A stretch of DNA of 35,967 nt from an uncultured Acidimicrobiales bacterium (lineage in GTDB: Bacteria > Actinomycetota > Acidimicrobiia > Acidimicrobiales > SZUA-35): assembly GCA_937922045.1 (NCBI GenBank), contig CAKZXA010000052.1:1-35967 (forward strand). The letters run 5' to 3'. How positions within the stretch are numbered: the first letter of the stretch is position 1; every line of letters starts with the position of its first letter. Positions 27-14,109 of this stretch are shown here, piece after piece. The position numbers were made by a program, and so were the translations under genes. A model generated the notes under the pieces. The model worked only from the letters and a program-made list of their open reading frames with translations, had not been told where the DNA came from and searched no databases.

Positions 27-1043
27 TTACCACTCTGGCAGATCCTCTCGGCGGCGCACGGAATCACCGAGCACCACCTCCGGATTCACCACTTGTTCGA
101 GCGGGACTGGCTCGCCTCGAATGAGGGCGGTGAGAGTCTCAACCGCCGTCAGGGCAAGTTGATCGAAGGGCTGACGGACCGTGGCAAGTGAAATGCCCTC
201 TCCTTCACAAGCAGTACCGTCGAATCCTGCGAGCATGATGTCGTGAGGAACATCTCGTCCTTGCTCGGTGAATCCCCGGAGCAGTCCGAGTGCCATCTCA
301 TCGTTAGCGGCGAAAACCCCATCGGGCTTCGCCCTGAGTACTGCATCGACGTTGGCGTAGCCGCTTGCACGGCTGAAATCGCCGTGGATGATGGATGCAT
401 CGTCGACGGTCAGCCCGCGAATCTCGTGAGCGAGCCGAAAGCCCTCCAAGCGGAGCGTTGCGTCGACTCGTTCCAACGGCCCAGCAACAGTGCAGACTCG
501 TTCACAGTCGGCGTCGAGCATTGCGCCGACGAGTTCGGCTGAAGAGTTGCGGTTCTCGACATCGATGACATGCACATCGGACCGGCGTGGGTGAGCACCG
601 ACGAGAACCGTCGGAACTCGGGCATCGAGGAGGTCTTCGACCCAACGTTCGCCGACGGCCACGGCGCTGATCACCACGCCATCGACCAACCCGTCGCTGA
701 TGAGGTTGCGGACCGAAACGGACGGCTCTGCGGAGTCCATGAGCAACATGAGCCCCTCGTCCAACCGATCGGCGGCGCGGGCGATGCCCTGCATGAGCGA
801 GATCGCGTACGAATCACCCAAGATGTCGTTGGAGCCAAGGACAAACCCGATGACTGACGTAGTCCCACCTGCAAGTCTCTTGGCGGTCCGATTCGGTCGG
901 TAGCCGAGCGCCTTGGCGATCATCTCGACCCGCTCGCGAACATCGCCGCGCACGCCATCGCGTCCGTTGAGTGCCCGAGAAGCAGTAGCCCGAGACACAC
1001 CACTCTTGCGAGCCACGTCGTCGAGCGTCACATCGTCGGCCAC
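27..1043 (-). CDS. LacI-family transcriptional repressor
   Basis: A sugar-responsive DNA-binding repressor, 338 aa from the chosen start. The N-terminal helix-turn-helix is seen as VTLDDVARKSGVSRATASRA (about residues 5-24), followed by a hinge helix with GYRPNRTAKRLAGG and then a periplasmic-binding-protein-like effector domain ending in the typical 'P.V.LGDSVRRRE' region. I chose GTG at 1043: a strong GGAGG lies 5-6 nt upstream, and the resulting length is the usual one for the family. An ATG at 1109 would add 22 residues before the HTH and has no better ribosome site. The gene is divergent from the GH1 glucosidase. A perfect 14-bp palindrome of LacI-family type lies 75 bp upstream of the start, so autoregulation and control of the glucosidase operon are likely. 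The effector is unknown; a beta-glucoside is inferred only from the neighbour. Confidence 0.93.
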   Translation of the reverse strand: MADDVTLDDVARKSGVSRATASRALNGRDGVRGDVRERVEMIAKALGYRPNRTAKRLAGGTTSVIGFVLGSNDILGDSYAISLMQGIARAADRLDEGLMLLMDSAEPSVSVRNLISDGLVDGVVISAVAVGERWVEDLLDARVPTVLVGAHPRRSDVHVIDVENRNSSAELVGAMLDADCERVCTVAGPLERVDATLRLEGFRLAHEIRGLTVDDASIIHGDFSRASGYANVDAVLRAKPDGVFAANDEMALGLLRGFTEQGRDVPHDIMLAGFDGTACEGEGISLATVRQPFDQLALTAVETLTALIRGEPVPLEQVVNPEVVLGDSVRRREDLPEW

Positions 1044-1117
1044 TGCTTCCTCCTCCGCGAGACTGCGTAATCCACGCACTTCGGTTTGAAGCCGGTCCTC
1101 CCAAGTCATGGTTGCGT

Positions 1118-1131
1118 TGGAAGCGCTTCCA
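1118..1131. promoter_or_regulatory. LacI-family operator O1
   Basis: TGGAAGCGCTTCCA is a perfect 14-bp palindrome with the central CG typical of LacI/GalR-family operators. It overlaps the predicted transcription start of the repressor gene, which suggests autorepression. Confidence 0.75.
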
Positions 1132-1160
1132 TGTAACCATGGCCATAGTCGACTTGTCAA
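1131..1160 (-). promoter_or_regulatory. Putative promoter of the LacI-type gene
   Basis: On the minus strand TTGACA (1160-1155) is a perfect -35 match. TTACAT (1136-1131), 18 bp away, is a moderate -10 candidate. The predicted start of transcription falls within the adjacent palindrome at 1118-1131, a classic position for repression. Inferred from sequence only. Confidence 0.45.
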
Positions 1161-1196
1161 CAGAGACATCGCTATTCCAGAAAGCAAGAGGTTCTC

Positions 1197-1238: not shown

Positions 1239-2612
1239 GTGCCTGTTACCGAAAGCGCTTCCGAAACTACTCGCAGCCCCCTTGTCTTCCCGCCAGGGTT
1301 TGTCTGGGGCTCAGCAACATCGTCGTACCAGATCGAAGGAGCGACGGCGGTTGACGGGAAGACACCGAGCATTTGGGACGTCTTCACCCGCAAGGAAGGC
1401 GCCGTCGCCGACGGGTCGAACGGCGACCGAGCCTGCGAACATGTCGAGCGATACGCCGATGACGTTGCGCTGATGGCTGATCTTGGCCTGGGGGCGTATC
1501 GCTTCTCGTTGGCATGGTCCCGTGTAATGCCAAATGGCGGCAGTCAGGTCAACCCGGCAGGGCTCGATTTCTACGATCGACTCATCGATTCGCTGCTCGC
1601 GGAAGGCATCACGCCAATGCCCACTCTCTACCATTGGGACCTCCCTCAAGCGTTGGAGGACAAGGGTGGCTGGGTCAATCGTGATACCGCAGCCGCGTTC
1701 GCCGAGTACACCGAAGCCGCCGTGACCCGCCTCGGCGATCGGATCTCCACGTGGACCACCCTCAACGAGCCCTTCGTCTCAGCCAACCATGGCTACGTCA
1801 CCGGTGAGCATGCGCCCGGGCGCACGTCGATGGCTGAGGGGATGGCCGCATCTCACCACCTGAATCTGGCCCACGGACTCTCAGGAGAGCGGATCCGGTC
1901 CATTGCACCCGAGTCGCGGCTGGCCATCGTGCTCAACTTCACCCCGGTGGAGCCAGCGACCGACAGCGAGGCCGACCGAATCGAGACCCACCACAGGAAT
2001 AACCTCGAGAATCGTTGGTACTCCGATCCAATCGGCGGCTTCGGCTACCCGCAGGACAGTGCTGAGCACTATGAGTGGGACCAATCCGAAGTCCTCGAGG
2101 GTGACCTTGATATCATCAGCGCTCCGATAGATCTGCTCGGCATCAATTTCTACTCGCGCAACATCGTGTCGGCGGACGACAGCTACATCGCTCCGCCGGA
2201 CACGCCGCGCAACACGATGGGCTGGGAGATCCACCCGCCGAGCCTCGGACGATTGCTGCGCGACCTCCACACTCGCTACTCGTTCCCGAGTTTCATGATC
2301 ACCGAGAATGGCGCTGCAATGCCCGACGAAGTTCGCGAGGACGGACGCATCGCTGATGACGATCGCCTCGACTTCATTCGCGCCCACGTCGAACAAGTCC
2401 ACAGCGCCATTGAGGACGGAGTCCCCATGGAGGGATACCTCGTTTGGTCGCTGTTCGACAACTTCGAATGGGCCTGGGGCTACGGCCCGCGATTCGGAAT
2501 CGTTGAGGTCGACTTTGAGACCCAAGTTCGTACACCAAAGAAGAGCGCCGAGTGGTTCTCGGCGGTCGCCAAGTCAAACCAAGTTACCTTTGAGGAGCAA
2601 GATCATGGCTGA
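1239..2612 (+). CDS. GH1 family beta-glucosidase
   Basis: A retaining beta-glycosidase of about 457 aa, the normal length for glycoside hydrolase family 1. The N-terminal signature F.WGSATSSYQIEGA is present. The acid/base Glu lies in TLNEPF (about residue 177) and the nucleophile Glu in ITENGA (about residue 356). The C-terminus has the family's LFDNFEWAWGY substrate-binding segment. No signal peptide is seen, so it should act in the cytoplasm on imported beta-glucosides. The GTG start at 1239 is preceded by GAAGGA with 7 nt spacing. A TTG at 1197 in the same frame overlaps the -35 box and is unlikely. The next gene starts 8 nt before this stop, so the two are translationally coupled. Aglycone preference cannot be told from sequence. 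Confidence 0.95.
   Translation: MPVTESASETTRSPLVFPPGFVWGSATSSYQIEGATAVDGKTPSIWDVFTRKEGAVADGSNGDRACEHVERYADDVALMADLGLGAYRFSLAWSRVMPNGGSQVNPAGLDFYDRLIDSLLAEGITPMPTLYHWDLPQALEDKGGWVNRDTAAAFAEYTEAAVTRLGDRISTWTTLNEPFVSANHGYVTGEHAPGRTSMAEGMAASHHLNLAHGLSGERIRSIAPESRLAIVLNFTPVEPATDSEADRIETHHRNNLENRWYSDPIGGFGYPQDSAEHYEWDQSEVLEGDLDIISAPIDLLGINFYSRNIVSADDSYIAPPDTPRNTMGWEIHPPSLGRLLRDLHTRYSFPSFMITENGAAMPDEVREDGRIADDDRLDFIRAHVEQVHSAIEDGVPMEGYLVWSLFDNFEWAWGYGPRFGIVEVDFETQVRTPKKSAEWFSAVAKSNQVTFEEQDHG
1251..1262. promoter_or_regulatory. LacI-family operator O2 (imperfect)
   Basis: GAAAGCGCTTCC shares the AAGCGCTT core (1253-1260) with the perfect operator at 1118-1131, with one mismatched outer pair. It lies inside the first codons of the glucosidase gene, about 20 bp downstream of its predicted transcription start. 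Two sites roughly 130 bp apart would allow looping or roadblock repression of both divergent units. Confidence 0.6.
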
Positions 2613-3774
2613 AGTCTCGTTTCGTTCCGTACAGAAGGTCTACGAAAACGGCTTCGTCGCAGTCCACGATCTGGATCTCGAGGTCTCCGATGGCGAGCTG
2701 CTCGTGGTCGTCGGGCCCTCCGGTTGCGGCAAGACCACCACCCTCCGGATGCTGGCCGGGCTGGAAGACATCACCATCGGCGAGGTGTCGATCGGCGGCA
2801 AGGTGGTTAACGACCTCACGGCGAAGGAGCGCGATATAGCGATGGTGTTTCAGAGCTATGCGCTCTATCCCCACCTCTCCGTTGCCGACAACCTGGCCTA
2901 TCCGCTGCGAATGGCGAAGTATCCCAAACACGAACGGGCCGAACGGGTCATGACGGTCGCCAAACAGCTGCGGTTGGAAGAACTCCTCGATCGCAAGCCT
3001 CGCCAGTTGTCGGGTGGTCAACGCCAGCGAGTCGCGATGGGTCGTGCCATGGTCCGCGAACCCCAGGTCTTCCTGATGGATGAACCACTGTCGAACCTCG
3101 ACGCTAAGCTCCGGGTGTTGATGCGCAGCGAGGTCGCGGAGCTACAGCACGAGCTCAACACGACCATGTTCTATGTCACACACGATCAGATTGAGGCGAT
3201 GACCATGGGTCACCGCGTCGCAATCATGGACCATGGCGTCCTTCAACAGGTGGCGCCCCCGGTCGAGCTTTACCGCTCCCCTGCGAATCTGTTCGTCGCC
3301 GGCTTCATCGGGTCGCCACCGATGAATTTGTTTGACGCTCAGGTGACTGGCGATGAGAGCGCTGTGTCGATCACCAGCGGGACCGCATCGATCGGCTTCG
3401 ACTCGCAAGCGCCCGATGCACTGCAACGAGTCAGTGGTGAGGCTGTGGTCATCGGTGTCCGACCAGAGCACGTCGAACTGGTGGCAGCCTCGACAGGGAT
3501 GCCGGCCATCGTCAAGCTCGTTGAAATGCTCGGGTCAGAAACGCTCGTCCACCTCGATGTCGACGGACTCGACTATCGGATGACCGACAACGATGCCACT
3601 GAAGAGGCGGTCGCCATGGGTGGCCGAATGCTGTGCAAGCTCCATCACGAGGCGACGATCCCGCGTCAGGGCGAGCGAATTAACATCAGATTCGAGCGAC
3701 GTCATGTCCACGTCTTCGACCCCACCTCGGGCTCAGTCATCACCGTCGACTCCGCTCAGGTATCACCGGCCTGA
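2605..3774 (+). CDS. ABC transporter ATPase, MsmK/UgpC type (sugar import)
   Basis: The ATP-hydrolysing subunit of a CUT1-type carbohydrate importer, 389 aa. Walker A is GPSGCGKTT (residues 37-45), Q-loop Q83, signature LSGGQ (135-139), Walker B VFLMDE (155-160) and H-loop His193. A C-terminal TOBE/OB extension follows from about residue 235, the regulatory domain of the UgpC/MalK class. ATG at 2605 follows GAGGAG with 7 nt spacing and overlaps the glucosidase stop by 8 nt. No permease or substrate-binding protein is in the window. It may be a shared ATPase serving several importers, as MsiK does in Streptomyces, or its permeases may be encoded elsewhere. Confidence 0.93.
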   Translation: MAEVSFRSVQKVYENGFVAVHDLDLEVSDGELLVVVGPSGCGKTTTLRMLAGLEDITIGEVSIGGKVVNDLTAKERDIAMVFQSYALYPHLSVADNLAYPLRMAKYPKHERAERVMTVAKQLRLEELLDRKPRQLSGGQRQRVAMGRAMVREPQVFLMDEPLSNLDAKLRVLMRSEVAELQHELNTTMFYVTHDQIEAMTMGHRVAIMDHGVLQQVAPPVELYRSPANLFVAGFIGSPPMNLFDAQVTGDESAVSITSGTASIGFDSQAPDALQRVSGEAVVIGVRPEHVELVAASTGMPAIVKLVEMLGSETLVHLDVDGLDYRMTDNDATEEAVAMGGRMLCKLHHEATIPRQGERINIRFERRHVHVFDPTSGSVITVDSAQVSPA

Positions 3775-3808: not shown

Positions 3809-5269
3809 TCACCATTGCGACTCGGTTTTAGGAACGATCAGATCCTCGATCGACTGCCAACGAACTCTCAAGGCCCCGAAGGAGCGGCGCTGCAGAGCGT
3901 TGCACCAAAGCCCCGAGCCGTACGCCAGCTCGTCGGCTAGCGCAATCGCACACCAGCGGAACGGGTCGATTTCTGGTCGGCTACGCCGCCATTCCAGGAC
4001 AAGCGAGACAAGAGCACCGAGGCCGGCTCGGCGCAGGGAACCAACGCCGACCACCCCGAAGAGCATCAACGGCCACCACGAGCGGCGCATCGTTGCTGCG
4101 AGGGCATCGCCGGCGAAGAGCGTGCCGCCGCCGGCCAGAACCAACGCCTCTTTCACAGGCTCATCGACTCGCCCCCGAAGCTCGGGAACGAGCAGAACGA
4201 CTGAGCCAGCCCAAAGGGCTAAAGCAGCGATACGCAATGGACCTCCGACGAGCATGAGAGCCCACACCGCAACACTCCAAGGGCTGATCGAGATCGCTTC
4301 AACCGATCCTGGATGCTCGATACCGAGATCGACGGTGCTTCTTCCGTATCCGTGCCGTCGCATCAACCATTCCCGCCACGATCTCCCGACCGGATGAGTC
4401 ACCGTCACGCTCGGCTCGTAGCGAACGGTGTCACCGGCGTTGTGCATCCGCCACACCAGATCGACGTCTTCACCCCGATTCATATCCGGTCGAAACCCGC
4501 CGGAGGCTTCGTAGGCATCCCGCCGGACCAAAAGCATCCCGCTGGGCACGAACGGGATGCGCGTGCCAGGACTCACCGCTCCCGGAGCAGCGCCTCGATC
4601 GAAGGCACCACGAACGGCCTCGAAGCGCTCCGCGATGGTCGAGCCCGCCTGACTCCTGATGCGTGGAGCGATGACCTGCACCCCCCACGTCTCGGCGAAC
4701 GTCGCAAGCCGGCTGACCGCATCCTCGGCTCCATGACCATCGACGCTGATGTCATCATCTATGAACAACAGGTAGCGGGCCGTGCCCTCCCCAGCGCCGA
4801 TGTGGCGAGCGCCACCGGGACCGAACGAAGCCGAACACCGAATCACCCGCACCTGTTCATTTGCGATCAGTTCGGTGGGCTGTTCGGATCCATCGTCCAC
4901 CACTGTCACCGAAGCGAGATGTTCGGTGGGCAAACGAGCCAGAAGTCTGCGAACCGACCGTGGCCGGTTTCGCGTCGGGATCACAACGTCGATTGCGCTC
5001 AGCACCCTCTCGTCGCCAGGCAGCGTAGGCGACTCAGGTTGAACGAAACCCCAGCGATAGAGCCGATCGTCGAAGCTGAATTCACCGGCACTCGCCGCGG
5101 AGTCATCGATGCCCTGCCCAACAATCCCATCAACAACATCCCGCTCGGACGACGTGAGGACCACGATGCGAAACGGTGAGCCACCCATGAGCGTCCGGCC
5201 ATCCATCGAACGGCGGACCGACGGGTCGAGTCGAAACAATGTCACGCCCATCACCGTAGATGGATTCAT
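3809..5269 (-). CDS. mftF: Mycofactocin-type glycosyltransferase, MftF-like
   Basis: A membrane-associated GT-A fold glycosyltransferase of 486 aa. After an N-terminal segment with RLDPSVRRSMDGRTLMGGSP (typical of MftF), the GT2 domain begins at IDVVIPTRNRP (about 93-103). The metal-binding D-D-D lies at 171-173 and a GEDVDLVWRM acceptor motif at about 266-275. The C-terminal third has hydrophobic segments (about 330-362 and 399-413) and ends with RPEIDPFRW...DELAYGSGLW, matching the MftF family's tail. MftF adds beta-1,4-linked glucose to the redox cofactor mycofactocin. No mftA, B, C, D or E is visible here, so the rest of the pathway must be elsewhere or absent. The ATG at 5269 is kept; an ATG at 5251 is an alternative. 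Confidence 0.82.
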   Translation of the reverse strand: MNPSTVMGVTLFRLDPSVRRSMDGRTLMGGSPFRIVVLTSSERDVVDGIVGQGIDDSAASAGEFSFDDRLYRWGFVQPESPTLPGDERVLSAIDVVIPTRNRPRSVRRLLARLPTEHLASVTVVDDGSEQPTELIANEQVRVIRCSASFGPGGARHIGAGEGTARYLLFIDDDISVDGHGAEDAVSRLATFAETWGVQVIAPRIRSQAGSTIAERFEAVRGAFDRGAAPGAVSPGTRIPFVPSGMLLVRRDAYEASGGFRPDMNRGEDVDLVWRMHNAGDTVRYEPSVTVTHPVGRSWREWLMRRHGYGRSTVDLGIEHPGSVEAISISPWSVAVWALMLVGGPLRIAALALWAGSVVLLVPELRGRVDEPVKEALVLAGGGTLFAGDALAATMRRSWWPLMLFGVVGVGSLRRAGLGALVSLVLEWRRSRPEIDPFRWCAIALADELAYGSGLWCNALQRRSFGALRVRWQSIEDLIVPKTESQW

Positions 5270-6737: not shown

Positions 6738-6962
6738 TTGACTGCCCGAGTACCGGGAGGCGAGGGTGTTCGTCTGCACGACCTGCGCCACTGGTTCTCT
6801 AGCTCCCAGTTGGACGCTGGGGAATCGCTTTCAGCGGTGGCGGCAAGGATTGGTGACAACGTCGAAACGTTTGCGAAGATCTACGCTCATAAGGGCAGGC
6901 GTGGGGACACCGGCGCTGCCGAGGCGATCGGAGCGCTGGTTGACCAGCTACTTGATTTATAG
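6738..6962 (+). pseudogene. Tyrosine recombinase (phage integrase) C-terminal fragment
   Basis: The 74-residue frame contains VRLHDLRHWFSSSQLDAGES, the H-x-x-R box of tyrosine recombinases, and then 'AARIGDNVETFAKIYAHK', which aligns with the region of the LGH box and catalytic Tyr. The core-binding domain and first catalytic Arg are absent. An in-frame TAG at 6729-6731 lies just upstream, and the sequence before it does not resemble an integrase. The fragment ends facing the VapC-like gene, the two stop codons sharing the sequence TTATAG. It is clearly an inactive relic, although C-terminal residues such as the Tyr are preserved. Confidence 0.8.
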
Positions 6963-10822: not shown

Positions 10823-12232
10823 TCAGCTCGGGATCGGTAGCAACATGTCGTCGGCAATGAAGGCTTCGAGTCCGCCAACTTCTTCGGTCATCGTGTCGCA
10901 GGAGATGAGCGGCACCGAACCGCGGTCGCCGGCGACGATGCCAGCGTCGGTCGCTTCCCAGCGTTCACGCACAATGACCGGCTCGCCATTTTCTTCGGCC
11001 GAGCCGATCGCTGAGGTGTCGACGACAAACAGGGGGTCGGCAGTGCTGGTGCGAATGCCAGAGGCCAGGAGCGTGGAATCCAGGTAGTTGAACCGGGCGG
11101 TGAAGCTGACGGCATCCGCACTGAAATCTACGACCAGCAGGCTGTCGTCGTCACCGAAACACTGGCGGCGATCGAACCCTTCGATCCCCTCGTCATCGAA
11201 GAAGGCCACGGATTCGTCGGTTACCCAGAACGGGATCTCGGAATCAATCAGCACCCAGTCGACGCCATCAGCCGAGGCCCGTATCCCGGTGGCCGACAAC
11301 GTATCGCCGGGTTTCGCAATGTCAGCGACATCGGGGGCAAGGCCACGGGTAACGGGGCTTTCGGCGAGAACCACAACCATCGACGGTTCAACACTGGGCA
11401 AGGGATCGGCGACCTTCTCCAGAAGATCGGCAGGATACCAGGTGGCTGGCTGCTGACGGAAAGGAATCATCTCGAACCACACCCGGTCATTCGCTTCAGC
11501 CTGTTGGCCGGTGGCGATCAGAGGGAAAATGCTGAACTGGCCTTCCATCGGCTCCCCGGCCGGGCTGAGCATGCCCTGTATGAGTTCGGTGCTGGAAGTG
11601 ATCCAGACCGAGCCCTCCTCAACGGTACGGTCGGGAACCGTGGACTCGTCGGTGATTGCCTCCTGATCGCTCGCTGAATCCGTGTCGGGGGTGTCGGTTT
11701 CTGGCGTGTCGGTGCCAGGGGTATCGGTTTCTGGGGTATCGGTGCCAGGCGCGTCGGTGCCAGGCGTGTCGGTTCCTGAGGTGTCGGTTCTCGATTGCTC
11801 AGACCCTTCTGGCGACGCAGCATCGATCTGCACGTCCGGCTGGTTCTGGGCCAGGGCGAACAGTCCGCCAGCGACGGCGATCACTACCACCGCTGCGGCG
11901 GCCAGCATGGGAAGCAGGGTGCGGTTGTGCTTTGGGATGGGTTCAGGGTGTCTCATGTCCCTAAGACGAATCACGTTGGCATCGGTTTGCACGTCGAGCG
12001 GAGAAAGTTCAGAAATCTCCGGGACCGCCTGGAGGCCAGGCTCTGGAACGGCATGGTCTGCAACGGCATGTTCCGGATCGACATGCTCCGGATCGGCCTG
12101 GGGTCGAGATTCGATGTCGTCCTGCTCGGCTTCCAACTGATGCAGCCGAGCTTCGATGTCGTCCCAATAGCCCGGACCGGACGTGGGAATCTCCGAGCGC
12201 AGGAAGGCGCCCAGTTCGTCGTCTTGACTCAT
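10823..12232 (-). CDS. Single-pass membrane protein, likely anti-sigma factor
   Basis: A 469-aa protein. The cytoplasmic N-terminus (about 1-104) is acidic, with 'FLRSEIPTSGPGYWDDIEARL' split by no recognisable zinc site. One membrane helix (about 105-127) follows. Next are a repeated Thr-Asp-Thr-Pro stalk (about 145-185) and a C-terminal extracytoplasmic domain of unknown fold. ATG at 12232 overlaps the sigma gene's stop as ATGA, which fixes the start and implies fixed stoichiometry. Placement and topology fit an anti-sigma factor that senses an external signal, but I see no ZAS H-x3-C-x2-C motif. The role is therefore inferred from context. Confidence 0.7.
   Translation of the reverse strand: MSQDDELGAFLRSEIPTSGPGYWDDIEARLHQLEAEQDDIESRPQADPEHVDPEHAVADHAVPEPGLQAVPEISELSPLDVQTDANVIRLRDMRHPEPIPKHNRTLLPMLAAAAVVVIAVAGGLFALAQNQPDVQIDAASPEGSEQSRTDTSGTDTPGTDAPGTDTPETDTPGTDTPETDTPDTDSASDQEAITDESTVPDRTVEEGSVWITSSTELIQGMLSPAGEPMEGQFSIFPLIATGQQAEANDRVWFEMIPFRQQPATWYPADLLEKVADPLPSVEPSMVVVLAESPVTRGLAPDVADIAKPGDTLSATGIRASADGVDWVLIDSEIPFWVTDESVAFFDDEGIEGFDRRQCFGDDDSLLVVDFSADAVSFTARFNYLDSTLLASGIRTSTADPLFVVDTSAIGSAEENGEPVIVRERWEATDAGIVAGDRGSVPLISCDTMTEEVGGLEAFIADDMLLPIPS
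11682..11795. repeat. 15-bp tandem repeat encoding a TDTPG/TDTPE stalk
   Basis: About seven imperfect copies of a 15-bp unit (such as GTGTCGGTGCCAGGC on the plus strand) run from 11682 to 11795. Read on the minus strand they encode pentapeptides of the form T-D-T-P-G/E. The unit is a multiple of three, so copy-number change alters stalk length and keeps the frame. Confidence 0.9.
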
Positions 12233-12744
12233 GCCTGCCACCTCTCCAACCGGGATCGGGCTCGGCTTACGCGTGATGCCACCGTACCTCGAGCTTCGCC
12301 GAGGATCTCGGCTACCTCGTCGTAGCTGTAGCCCCAGCCGGCGACCAGCATTAGCGCCACCCGCTCCTCGGGAGCCAGCTGTTCCATCACGCTTTCCATC
12401 TCCATCCGACCGATGCTGGCCGAGGCGGCATCGCCGGTGTCGTTGCCTTGGTTGCGGAGCGAATCCAAATCATCGTGTCGCCGACGCCCCTCGTAGCGGG
12501 AATGGTCGATGGCGGTGCGGTACACGATCGAATGCAGCCAGGTACTGAACTGCGACCGGCCGTCAAAGGTAGATAGCGCTCGAAAAGCCTTCTCGTAGGC
12601 CGCTTGCATGATGTCGTCGGTGCGGTTCGGGTCGCGCACGACGGCCCAGGCCACACCTCTGAGCCGCTCGTCATGGGCCTTGATGTATTCGCCGAACGAC
12701 CGGGCGTCGGTGGGGGCAATCCGATCACCGAATTGTTCAACCAA
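12229..12744 (-). CDS. ECF-type RNA polymerase sigma factor
   Basis: A 171-aa sigma-70 family factor with only regions 2 and 4. Region 2 is seen at about 18-85 (YIKAHDERLRGVAW, DPNRTDDIMQAAYEKAFRAL, then FSTWLHSIVYRTAIDH). Region 4 is at about 115-168 (LAPEERVALML, YSYDEVAEILGEARGTVASR). The open frame extends far upstream antisense to the next gene. TTG at 12744 is the sensible start: AGGGGGG lies 7 nt before it and no ATG or GTG is available nearby. A TATACT box (12766-12761) just upstream suggests a promoter. The stop overlaps the start of the membrane protein gene, which is likely to hold this factor at the membrane until a signal arrives. Confidence 0.9.
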   Translation of the reverse strand: MVEQFGDRIAPTDARSFGEYIKAHDERLRGVAWAVVRDPNRTDDIMQAAYEKAFRALSTFDGRSQFSTWLHSIVYRTAIDHSRYEGRRRHDDLDSLRNQGNDTGDAASASIGRMEMESVMEQLAPEERVALMLVAGWGYSYDEVAEILGEARGTVASRVSRARSRLERWQA

Positions 12745-12927
12745 AGCCCGACCCCCCTGGAGTATAGGGGTGGGCGCCTCAGGGATGAAGGATTGGCGGC
12801 GTGTGTGTTCATGCTCTTTCGACGCACGAGCGATCCGTCCGTATGCAGATCGACGAAGATTCTTTGCGCCACGGGTACGATATGGCAGCCTCGGCCGACC
12901 GGCCGTGTGTTCAACGAAGGGGAAGCC

Positions 12928-14109
12928 GTGTCGGAAATCGGTTCGCGTTCGCAAGCATCGACGGCGGTCTGGGGCGGTGAGGACCGGTACCTGCTCGATC
13001 GCGCGACACAGGTCCCCGTCGTGCACAGTGTGGCGTTCGGCTACCCCGATTTTGACGAGTGGTACGACGTCGCCACCGGTGTGGCCGAGGGGCACATCTA
13101 CGGACGCAACACGAACCCGACGGTGGCCGTTTTCGAGGAGAAGGTGCGACTGCTCGAAGGAGCAGCAGCGGCAACCTCCGCATCGACCGGCATGGCCGCC
13201 ATCTCCAACACGCTGCACGCCTTGTTGCGGCCTGGCAGCCGGGTGGTGTCGGTCAAGGACACCTACGGTGGCACGAGCCTGCTGTTCATCGAATTTCTCC
13301 CGGCGTTCGGGATCGATTGTGAACTCGTTGACACCACCGACACCGACGCAATCGAGGCGGCGATCGGCGCCGGCTGCGACATGCTGTACCTCGAAACCCC
13401 CACCAACCCCACGCTCAAAGTTCTCGACCTCGCTCGCCTCATCGCCGCTGGCCACACAGCCGGAGCGGTCGTGGTGGTCGACAACACGTTTGCCACGCCA
13501 ATCAACCAGCTGCCGCTTGCGTTTGGCGCCGATCTCGTCGTCCACTCAGCCACGAAGTTTCTCGGCGGTCACGCCGATGCGCTCGGCGGCGTGGTGGTTG
13601 GCGACGCCGATCTGGTGAAGAAGGTGTTCCAGTACCGCGAGATCAACGGAGCAACTCTCGACCCGATGGCCGCCTACCTCCTGCTGCGAGGTATGAAAAC
13701 GCTCGACCTTCGGGTGAAACGACAGGCCGAAAACGCCATGGCGGTCGCAACCTTCCTCGAAGCCCACGAACGGGTTACGCAGGTGAACTACCCGGGCCTC
13801 GAATCCCATCCCCAGCATGCGATTGCGGCCGCCCAGATGTCGGGCTTCGGCGGGATGTTGAGCTTCGCTATCGATGGCGGGCTCGACGCGGTCAAAGCCT
13901 TCCTCCCTGACCTACAAATGGCCCACCGGGCCGCCAACCTTGGCGCGGTTGAAACCACGGTGGGTCCACCGGCAACGACAAGCCACGTCGAGTGCACGCC
14001 CGAAGAGCGGGCCGCTCTCGGTATTCCCGAAGGCCTGGTCCGCTACTCGGCTGGGATCGAGCACGTCGACGATCTGGTCGCCGACCTGGCTCAAGCCCTC
14101 GACCGGTAA
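12928..14109 (+). CDS. Cystathionine gamma-synthase/lyase-family PLP enzyme
   Basis: A fold-type I PLP enzyme of the Cys/Met metabolism family, 393 aa, the usual length. The PLP-phosphate region is YGRNTNPTV and TSASTGMAAI, the Asp holding the pyridine nitrogen lies in VVVVDNTFATP, and the Schiff-base Lys is K210 in SATKFLGGH. The C-terminus, LVRYSAGIEHVDDLVADL, is canonical. Members perform gamma-synthesis with O-acyl-homoserine or gamma/beta-elimination; sequence alone does not settle which. The unusual GPPATTSHVECTPEER loop differs from the common 'HPASMTH' of MetB, so a lyase or a specialised role is possible. GTG at 12928 follows AAGGGGA. The gene is divergent from the sigma factor. Confidence 0.9.
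   Translation: MSEIGSRSQASTAVWGGEDRYLLDRATQVPVVHSVAFGYPDFDEWYDVATGVAEGHIYGRNTNPTVAVFEEKVRLLEGAAAATSASTGMAAISNTLHALLRPGSRVVSVKDTYGGTSLLFIEFLPAFGIDCELVDTTDTDAIEAAIGAGCDMLYLETPTNPTLKVLDLARLIAAGHTAGAVVVVDNTFATPINQLPLAFGADLVVHSATKFLGGHADALGGVVVGDADLVKKVFQYREINGATLDPMAAYLLLRGMKTLDLRVKRQAENAMAVATFLEAHERVTQVNYPGLESHPQHAIAAAQMSGFGGMLSFAIDGGLDAVKAFLPDLQMAHRAANLGAVETTVGPPATTSHVECTPEERAALGIPEGLVRYSAGIEHVDDLVADLAQALDR

Follow-up and report, generated by a model that had tools for sequence, protein, structure and literature searches.

A second MftF-type glycosyltransferase at a beta-glucosidase locus in an uncultured Acidimicrobiales bacterium

The window analysed in this study is an entire contig (C52, 35,967 nucleotides) of the genome of an uncultured Acidimicrobiales bacterium (G000), and gene neighbourhoods in it can be read within this contig only. 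At 3809..5269 on the minus strand it contains an open reading frame with an ATG start for a protein of 486 amino acids, an MftF-family GT2 glycosyltransferase which we call MftF2. The preliminary description had given these coordinates without a strand; the frame was confirmed, and the plus strand across the interval is interrupted by stops. With the NCBIfam model TIGR03965, MftF2 scores 306.4 bits against a cut-off of 280, residues 13-470 of the protein aligning to positions 2-464 of the 467 in the profile. The next-best family, EpsD, reaches 99 bits with its own cut-off at 370, and Pfam Glycos_transf_2 gives 51 bits. Motifs, invariant columns and Foldseek matches delimit a GT-A-like catalytic domain (approximately residues 93-300; 4370..4993, minus strand). 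Its motifs VVDDGS at 123, DDD at 171 and GEDVD at 266 contain columns invariant in 15 aligned MftF proteins and are kept in comparison with 137 others. Moreover, 53 of the 78 columns that are at least 85% conserved in these 137 other MftF rows, the catalytic ones included, are retained in every MftF2 row present. The open frame and the kept catalytic motifs rule out a pseudogene. The earlier assignment to an MftF-like protein with a GT2 core thus stands, the TIGR03965 score lying above the cut-off and the GGSP and catalytic motifs being kept; its sequence marks MftF2 as a second MftF that is intact and divergent.

An AlphaFold2 model of MftF2, calculated from a 15-row alignment, has a mean pLDDT of 86.7. 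Foldseek aligned this model over part of its length to glycosyltransferases in the PDB (best E 1.2e-11), which we take to be GT-A folds. The secondary structure of the model shows a bundle of long helices in the C-terminal part (approximately residues 330-461; 3887..4282, minus strand), which is perhaps membrane-associated. For MftF of M. smegmatis, one membrane helix has been predicted at 324-346 (PMC7491314, in part).

A separate model was obtained for the N-terminal domain, which is modelled as a winged-helix or RRE-like arrangement (approximately residues 10-81; 5027..5242, minus strand) and contains the GGSP motif at 29-32. Residues 1-96 modelled alone gave a mean pLDDT of 74 and a pTM of 0.57. 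Foldseek matches of this domain were rich in RiPP enzymes, none of them significant (best E 1.4). VIA-align, which warns that Z below 8 may reflect merely a common arrangement, gave Z scores of 7.0 to TigE, 6.4 to lasso B1, 5.5 to the PbtF RRE and 4.8 to McbBCD, in all Z 4-7 to RiPP-enzyme chains such as 8vpo, 6jx3, 8t19 and 6gos, while its best Z of 7.3 was to 3dee, a winged helix outside RiPP enzymes. Which of the matched chains carry RREs is mostly presumed here; for 8t19 the title says so. The PqqD model was absent among the nine Pfam families matched by any of 15 MftF members, and hhalign of the MftF2 N-terminal domain against MftB returned a probability of 2%. The model-based term RRE-like therefore denotes a lead. 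Fusions of RREs with glycosyltransferases have already been published, and MftF is not named in the main text of either paper (PMC7470986, PMC12710340). Like these fusions, MftF2 combines a GT2 domain (PF00535) with an N-terminal winged helix whose fold appears RRE-like; unlike them, it has no sequence-profile support from Pfam PqqD or MftB.

The genes on the tail side of MftF2 constitute a beta-glucosidase locus with the order LacI (minus), GH1 (plus), ATPase (plus) and MftF2 (minus). The GH1 beta-glucosidase (1239..2612, plus strand, with a chosen start) matches PF00232 and TIGR03356 (569.9 bits, cut-off 478.5) and contains the catalytic motifs LNEP and TENG. It is followed by the gene of an MsiK/UgpC-type ABC transporter ATPase (2605..3774, plus strand, start likewise chosen) with 462 bits for NF008653 at a cut-off of 432 and with the Pfam domains PF00005, PF17912 and PF08402. 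34 bases separate the 3'-ends of the ATPase gene and of MftF2, the GH1-ATPase pair being arranged tail-to-tail with the latter. Since the genes are convergent, GH1 and MftF2 do not form one transcript. A LacI-family repressor (27..1187, minus strand; PF00356, PF13377) is divergent from GH1. Its true start is probably near 1040, as the ORF has its HTH only from residue 54 onwards. This repressor shares 50-58% identity with the LacI proteins beside orthologous GH1 genes in the genomes G004, G012 and G169. Elsewhere in the window, at 12229-13545, a 438-aa ORF was noted in which an ECF sigma-70 domain is confined to the last part, approximately residues 279-435.

The divergent region between lacI and GH1 contains a perfect palindrome, TGGAAGCGCTTCCA (1118..1131), which is a probable LacI operator on sequence grounds. 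It also occurs in the lacI/GH1 region of the loci L040 and L077, and with one mismatch in that of L224. A weaker copy with three mismatches is located at 1250-1263. In the whole window four sites with at most three mismatches were found at 1.88 expected. Of these, the one at 6820-6833 has three mismatches, is placed 1.5 kb upstream of MftF2 and is taken as chance. No copy is located just upstream of MftF2 in the window, near MftF2 in the loci L040, L041 and L042, or on contig C45 of the same genome. A scan of the window with what we presume to be the CebR operator pattern gave four sites against 3.24 expected, no more than chance. Any co-regulation of MftF2 with the locus would be conjectural.

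The LacI regulator, the GH1 enzyme and the sugar ABC ATPase, all components of a ceb-type locus, are present in the window. C45 carries an SBP 60% and two permeases 69% and 68% identical to those of G169. The SBP match on this contig sits 103 bases from the contig end, and on C52 the lacI ORF reaches to within 26 bases of the contig start. The two contigs probably adjoin, which would complete a locus of the type LacI-SBP-permease-permease / GH1-ATPase. In gene content this resembles cebR-cebEFG-bglC and msiK of Streptomyces, as outlined in part of PMC4890002, with regard to the LacI-family regulator, the GH1 beta-glucosidase and the multi-sugar ATPase, as well as the SBP and two permeases, which in G000 are on the other contig. 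In contrast to the Streptomyces arrangement, the ATPase is encoded after GH1, the regulator gene and GH1 are divergent, and the locus has an MftF copy attached. We infer that the locus would serve a beta-glucoside.

No mft partner was detected in the window: tblastn with the genome's own MftA, MftB, MftC, MftD and MftE returned E values of 0.04 or higher, and a GVY end like that of MftA was not found there either. A search of the whole genome for mftA-E and for further copies of mftF, as the preliminary description had proposed, revealed a complete cluster on contig C108, where MftF, MftD, the mft-coupled SDR, MftE, MftC, MftB and MftA lie together with an NDMA-dependent alcohol dehydrogenase in their neighbourhood. 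The MftF of this cluster reaches 303.4 bits with TIGR03965, and the genome's best MftC and MftD matches are also on C108. Hence the statement that the glycosyltransferase occurs without a mycofactocin cluster is correct for the window but not for the genome. As the mft set is complete on C108 and none of it is in the window, the pathway is complete without MftF2.

Two explanations had been put forward, a pathway split within the genome or a paralogue that uses another acceptor. In a split pathway, an mft cluster at another site would depend on MftF2 as its sole MftF, and large distances between MftC and MftF do occur: they are 2.87 Mb apart in the single-contig genome G044, and in G169, also a single contig, two MftF genes lie at 0.70 and 2.25 Mb from MftC. 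Nevertheless, we regard this explanation as highly improbable and rejected it, since C108, which fits the tetranucleotide profile of the genome (r 0.944), carries a full cluster that includes an MftF. For C52 the fit is r 0.964, and stretches of other genomes gave 0.68-0.87. The value for C52, obtained against ten other G000 stretches, and a GC content of 0.617 also rule out that the window is a foreign contig. That MftF2 is a paralogue was borne out, both by the MftF of the C108 cluster and by the MftF2 clade described below.

The premise that MftF normally closes the mft cluster proved weak in the Acidimicrobiales. Among 112 MftF places in 108 sampled genomes of the order that have both genes, the distance from MftC to the start of MftF is at most 6 kb in 39, 6-60 kb in 31 and larger on one contig in 3; the remaining 39, MftF2 included, are on other contigs, for which draft assembly is a confounder. 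In four of 298 genomes of the order (G066, G139, G208 and G213) an MftF match (E<=1e-50) was observed with no MftC match (E<=1e-60); draft gaps are possible in these cases, and the match in G066 is weak (173 bits).

MftF2 and the MftF of C108 share 30-34% identity. A first scan of the genome contigs with the single MftF2 protein as query had found no relatives. An MftF match of at least 214 bits is present in 31 of the 39 genomes of the family. Five of the 39 (G000, G004, G009, G012 and G025) have two such matches, and in three (G000, G004 and G025) both exceed the TIGR03965 cut-off. The window copy and one copy each from G004, G009, G012 and G025 form the MftF2 clade, with an SH-aLRT support of 98 in a 74-row and 99 in a 142-row tree, both being quick trees with neither bootstrap nor a non-MftF outgroup, in which two of the five MftF2 rows are contig-end fragments. 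Identity among the MftF2 copies is about 40%. It had been considered that the protein might fall outside the MftF clade; it scores as MftF and sits among the MftF rows of these trees, which contain MftF proteins only. In the 74-row tree, the other MftF of G004, G009, G012 and G025 groups with the family's usual MftF.

The C108 MftF of G000 behaves differently. In both trees it pairs (support 99) with the second-cluster MftF of G106, a member of another family; the mft cluster holding this copy spans L019:7964-15406 on C108. Since this MftF does not group with the family's usual MftF, the C108 cluster, or at least its MftF, may have been replaced by transfer. The quick trees drew MftF2 outside the family's own MftF, a placement weakened by a constrained tree: joining the MftF2 clade with 30 usual family copies scored 10.5 log units better than the free search, with a p-AU of 0.65. 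An old duplication within the family is thus a possible origin of MftF2.

In four of the five MftF2 genomes, from three genera, a GH1 gene lies on the tail side of MftF2 and is convergent with it. These GH1 enzymes of G004, G009 and G012 are 68-71% identical to that of the window and are encoded directly tail-to-tail with MftF2, whereas in the window the ATPase gene is in between. LacI adjoins GH1 in the window, G004 and G012. Further out, an ammonium transporter lies beyond lacI in G004, and in G009 and G012 the genes outside GH1/lacI are holA and dihydropteroate synthase. Apart from lacI, GH1 and MftF2, comparison of the window with G004 revealed no neighbour in common, including on the MftF2 side. 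This flank comparison is partial, since MftF2 is cut off by the contig end in G009 and G012 and the window ends at lacI. The fifth genome, G025, lacks this neighbour: its MftF2 contig of 14.8 kb contains no GH1, and a search of the genome at E<=1e-60 gave no GH1 match either.

Among the MftF loci examined, mostly with flanks of 1.5 kb, a GH1 match was found at MftF2 loci only, the GH1 of G169 lying just beyond the stretch covered. In the best 80 of 522 MftF loci, those that were named, flanks of up to 5 kb contained MftE in 65, MftC in 23 and GH1 in a single case, which was G004's own MftF2 contig. GH1 was matched in 41 of 298 genomes of the order (E<=1e-100), and comparison of the match lists placed MftF less than about 10 kb from GH1 on the same contig in G000 and G169 only. 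Viewed from the enzyme, a GH1 orthologue of at least 64% identity is present in 10 of the 39 family genomes, four of which have MftF2 alongside. No MftF was found near the GH1 orthologue in the stretches of 8-16 kb read from G013, G016, G024, G027 and G032. The G007 contig stops 0.36 kb past GH1, and the search of this genome yielded no MftF. The MftF2-linked GH1 genes did not form a clade in a GH1 tree. On a 68-kb contig of G027 (C26), the GH1 orthologue and an MftF were observed approximately 26 kb apart, with MftC on the same contig.

Part of this distribution would fit a neutral explanation, in which an old spare MftF landed beside GH1, the two were inherited together, and the copy was kept for redundancy. 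Most GH1 orthologues were seen with no MftF nearby, MftF2 occurs in G025 with no GH1, no shared operator lies just upstream of MftF2, and the outer flanks are comparable in part only. On the other hand, the GH1-MftF2 pair is present in three genera with no other neighbour found to be shared between the window and G004, the MftF2 copies have retained their motifs at a mutual identity of about 40%, and a second MftF lineage joins an orthologous locus in G169. Taken together, we consider mere co-inheritance of a spare copy unlikely.

The case of G169, a genome from another family assembled as a single contig, concerns one of its two MftF genes. It follows LacI-SBP-permease-permease on the same strand, starting 8 bases after the second permease, and this row is divergent from the orthologous GH1 and ATPase genes. 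Its product is the sister of the other MftF of G169 (support 100), which implies that its arrival at the locus was an event separate from that of MftF2. In G016, G044 and G179 the set LacI-SBP-permease-permease / GH1-ATPase was likewise seen, with no MftF in the 14-16 kb read.

In family score, GT2 core, GGSP domain and C-terminal helices MftF2 resembles the known MftF (TIGR03965; MSMEG_1426 of M. smegmatis, Rv0696 of M. tuberculosis). It differs from it as a second copy on a contig free of mft genes and next to GH1, and by changes at S221, A312 and P325, which are strongly conserved in other MftF and altered in all five MftF2 rows. Two of these positions fall shortly after the RxxYG motif. 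Such clade-specific changes could mean a changed acceptor, and they would suit a repurposed enzyme that glucosylates another peptide, a lipid or a free oligosaccharide in beta-glucan or cello-oligosaccharide metabolism and no longer has mycofactocin as its acceptor. The lack of mft genes in the window, the presence of another MftF in all five MftF2 genomes and the GH1/LacI neighbourhood of two MftF lineages, accompanied by transporter genes in G169, point in the same direction. However, MftF2 has kept the GGSP domain and the catalytic motifs and still scores above the MftF cut-off. MftC is also present in all five genomes, although this co-presence says little, as 30 of the 39 family genomes have MftC. 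Repurposing is a possible, if tentative, alternative, and mycofactocin seems to us somewhat more likely as acceptor than another molecule.

The explanation which we prefer is that MftF2 is an active MftF-type glucosyltransferase tied to beta-glucoside metabolism, with mycofactocin or a precursor of it as acceptor. We assign it a probability slightly below one half (about 0.48). Two points, the limited reach of the flank comparison and the ATPase gene that separates GH1 from MftF2 in the window, lowered this weight slightly and raised that of the neutral explanation. In M. smegmatis the mycofactocin chain is a beta-1,4-glucan that requires MftF and is shortened by cellulase, and loss of mftF abolished all glycosylated mycofactocins and the aglycons PMFT and PMFTH2 too (PMC7491314, in part). 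MftF2 would most likely work in the manner of MftF, as an inverting glucosyltransferase that uses a glucose donor and adds beta-1,4-linked glucose to its acceptor, which is perhaps recognised via the N-terminal RRE-like domain. Attached to a locus for uptake and splitting of beta-glucosides (LacI, GH1, sugar ABC transporter), it may adjust the glucose chain of mycofactocin during growth on beta-glucans as carbon source, and GH1 could be the enzyme that trims this chain. The genomic data are suggestive of such a functional link between MftF2 and the beta-glucoside locus. A more far-reaching proposal, in which MftF2 and GH1 are a build-and-trim pair that sets the glucan length and ties the state of the cofactor to the supply of cello-oligosaccharides, at least two MftF lineages having joined such loci separately, appears doubtful to us.

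New in this study is the location of a second MftF beside a set of beta-glucosidase genes, for which G169 offers a separate parallel. No description of such an MftF copy was found in the open-licence literature on mycofactocin, where cellobiose refers to cellobiose dehydrogenase in one paper, considered in part. The 2011 description of mycofactocin was based on presence and absence of marker families and not on copy number (PMC3023750, in part). With two matches above the cut-off in three of 39 family genomes, TIGR03965 matches should not be counted as one per mft cluster. The second MftF at the beta-glucosidase locus provides a concrete, testable lead on how the mycofactocin chain may be built and trimmed.
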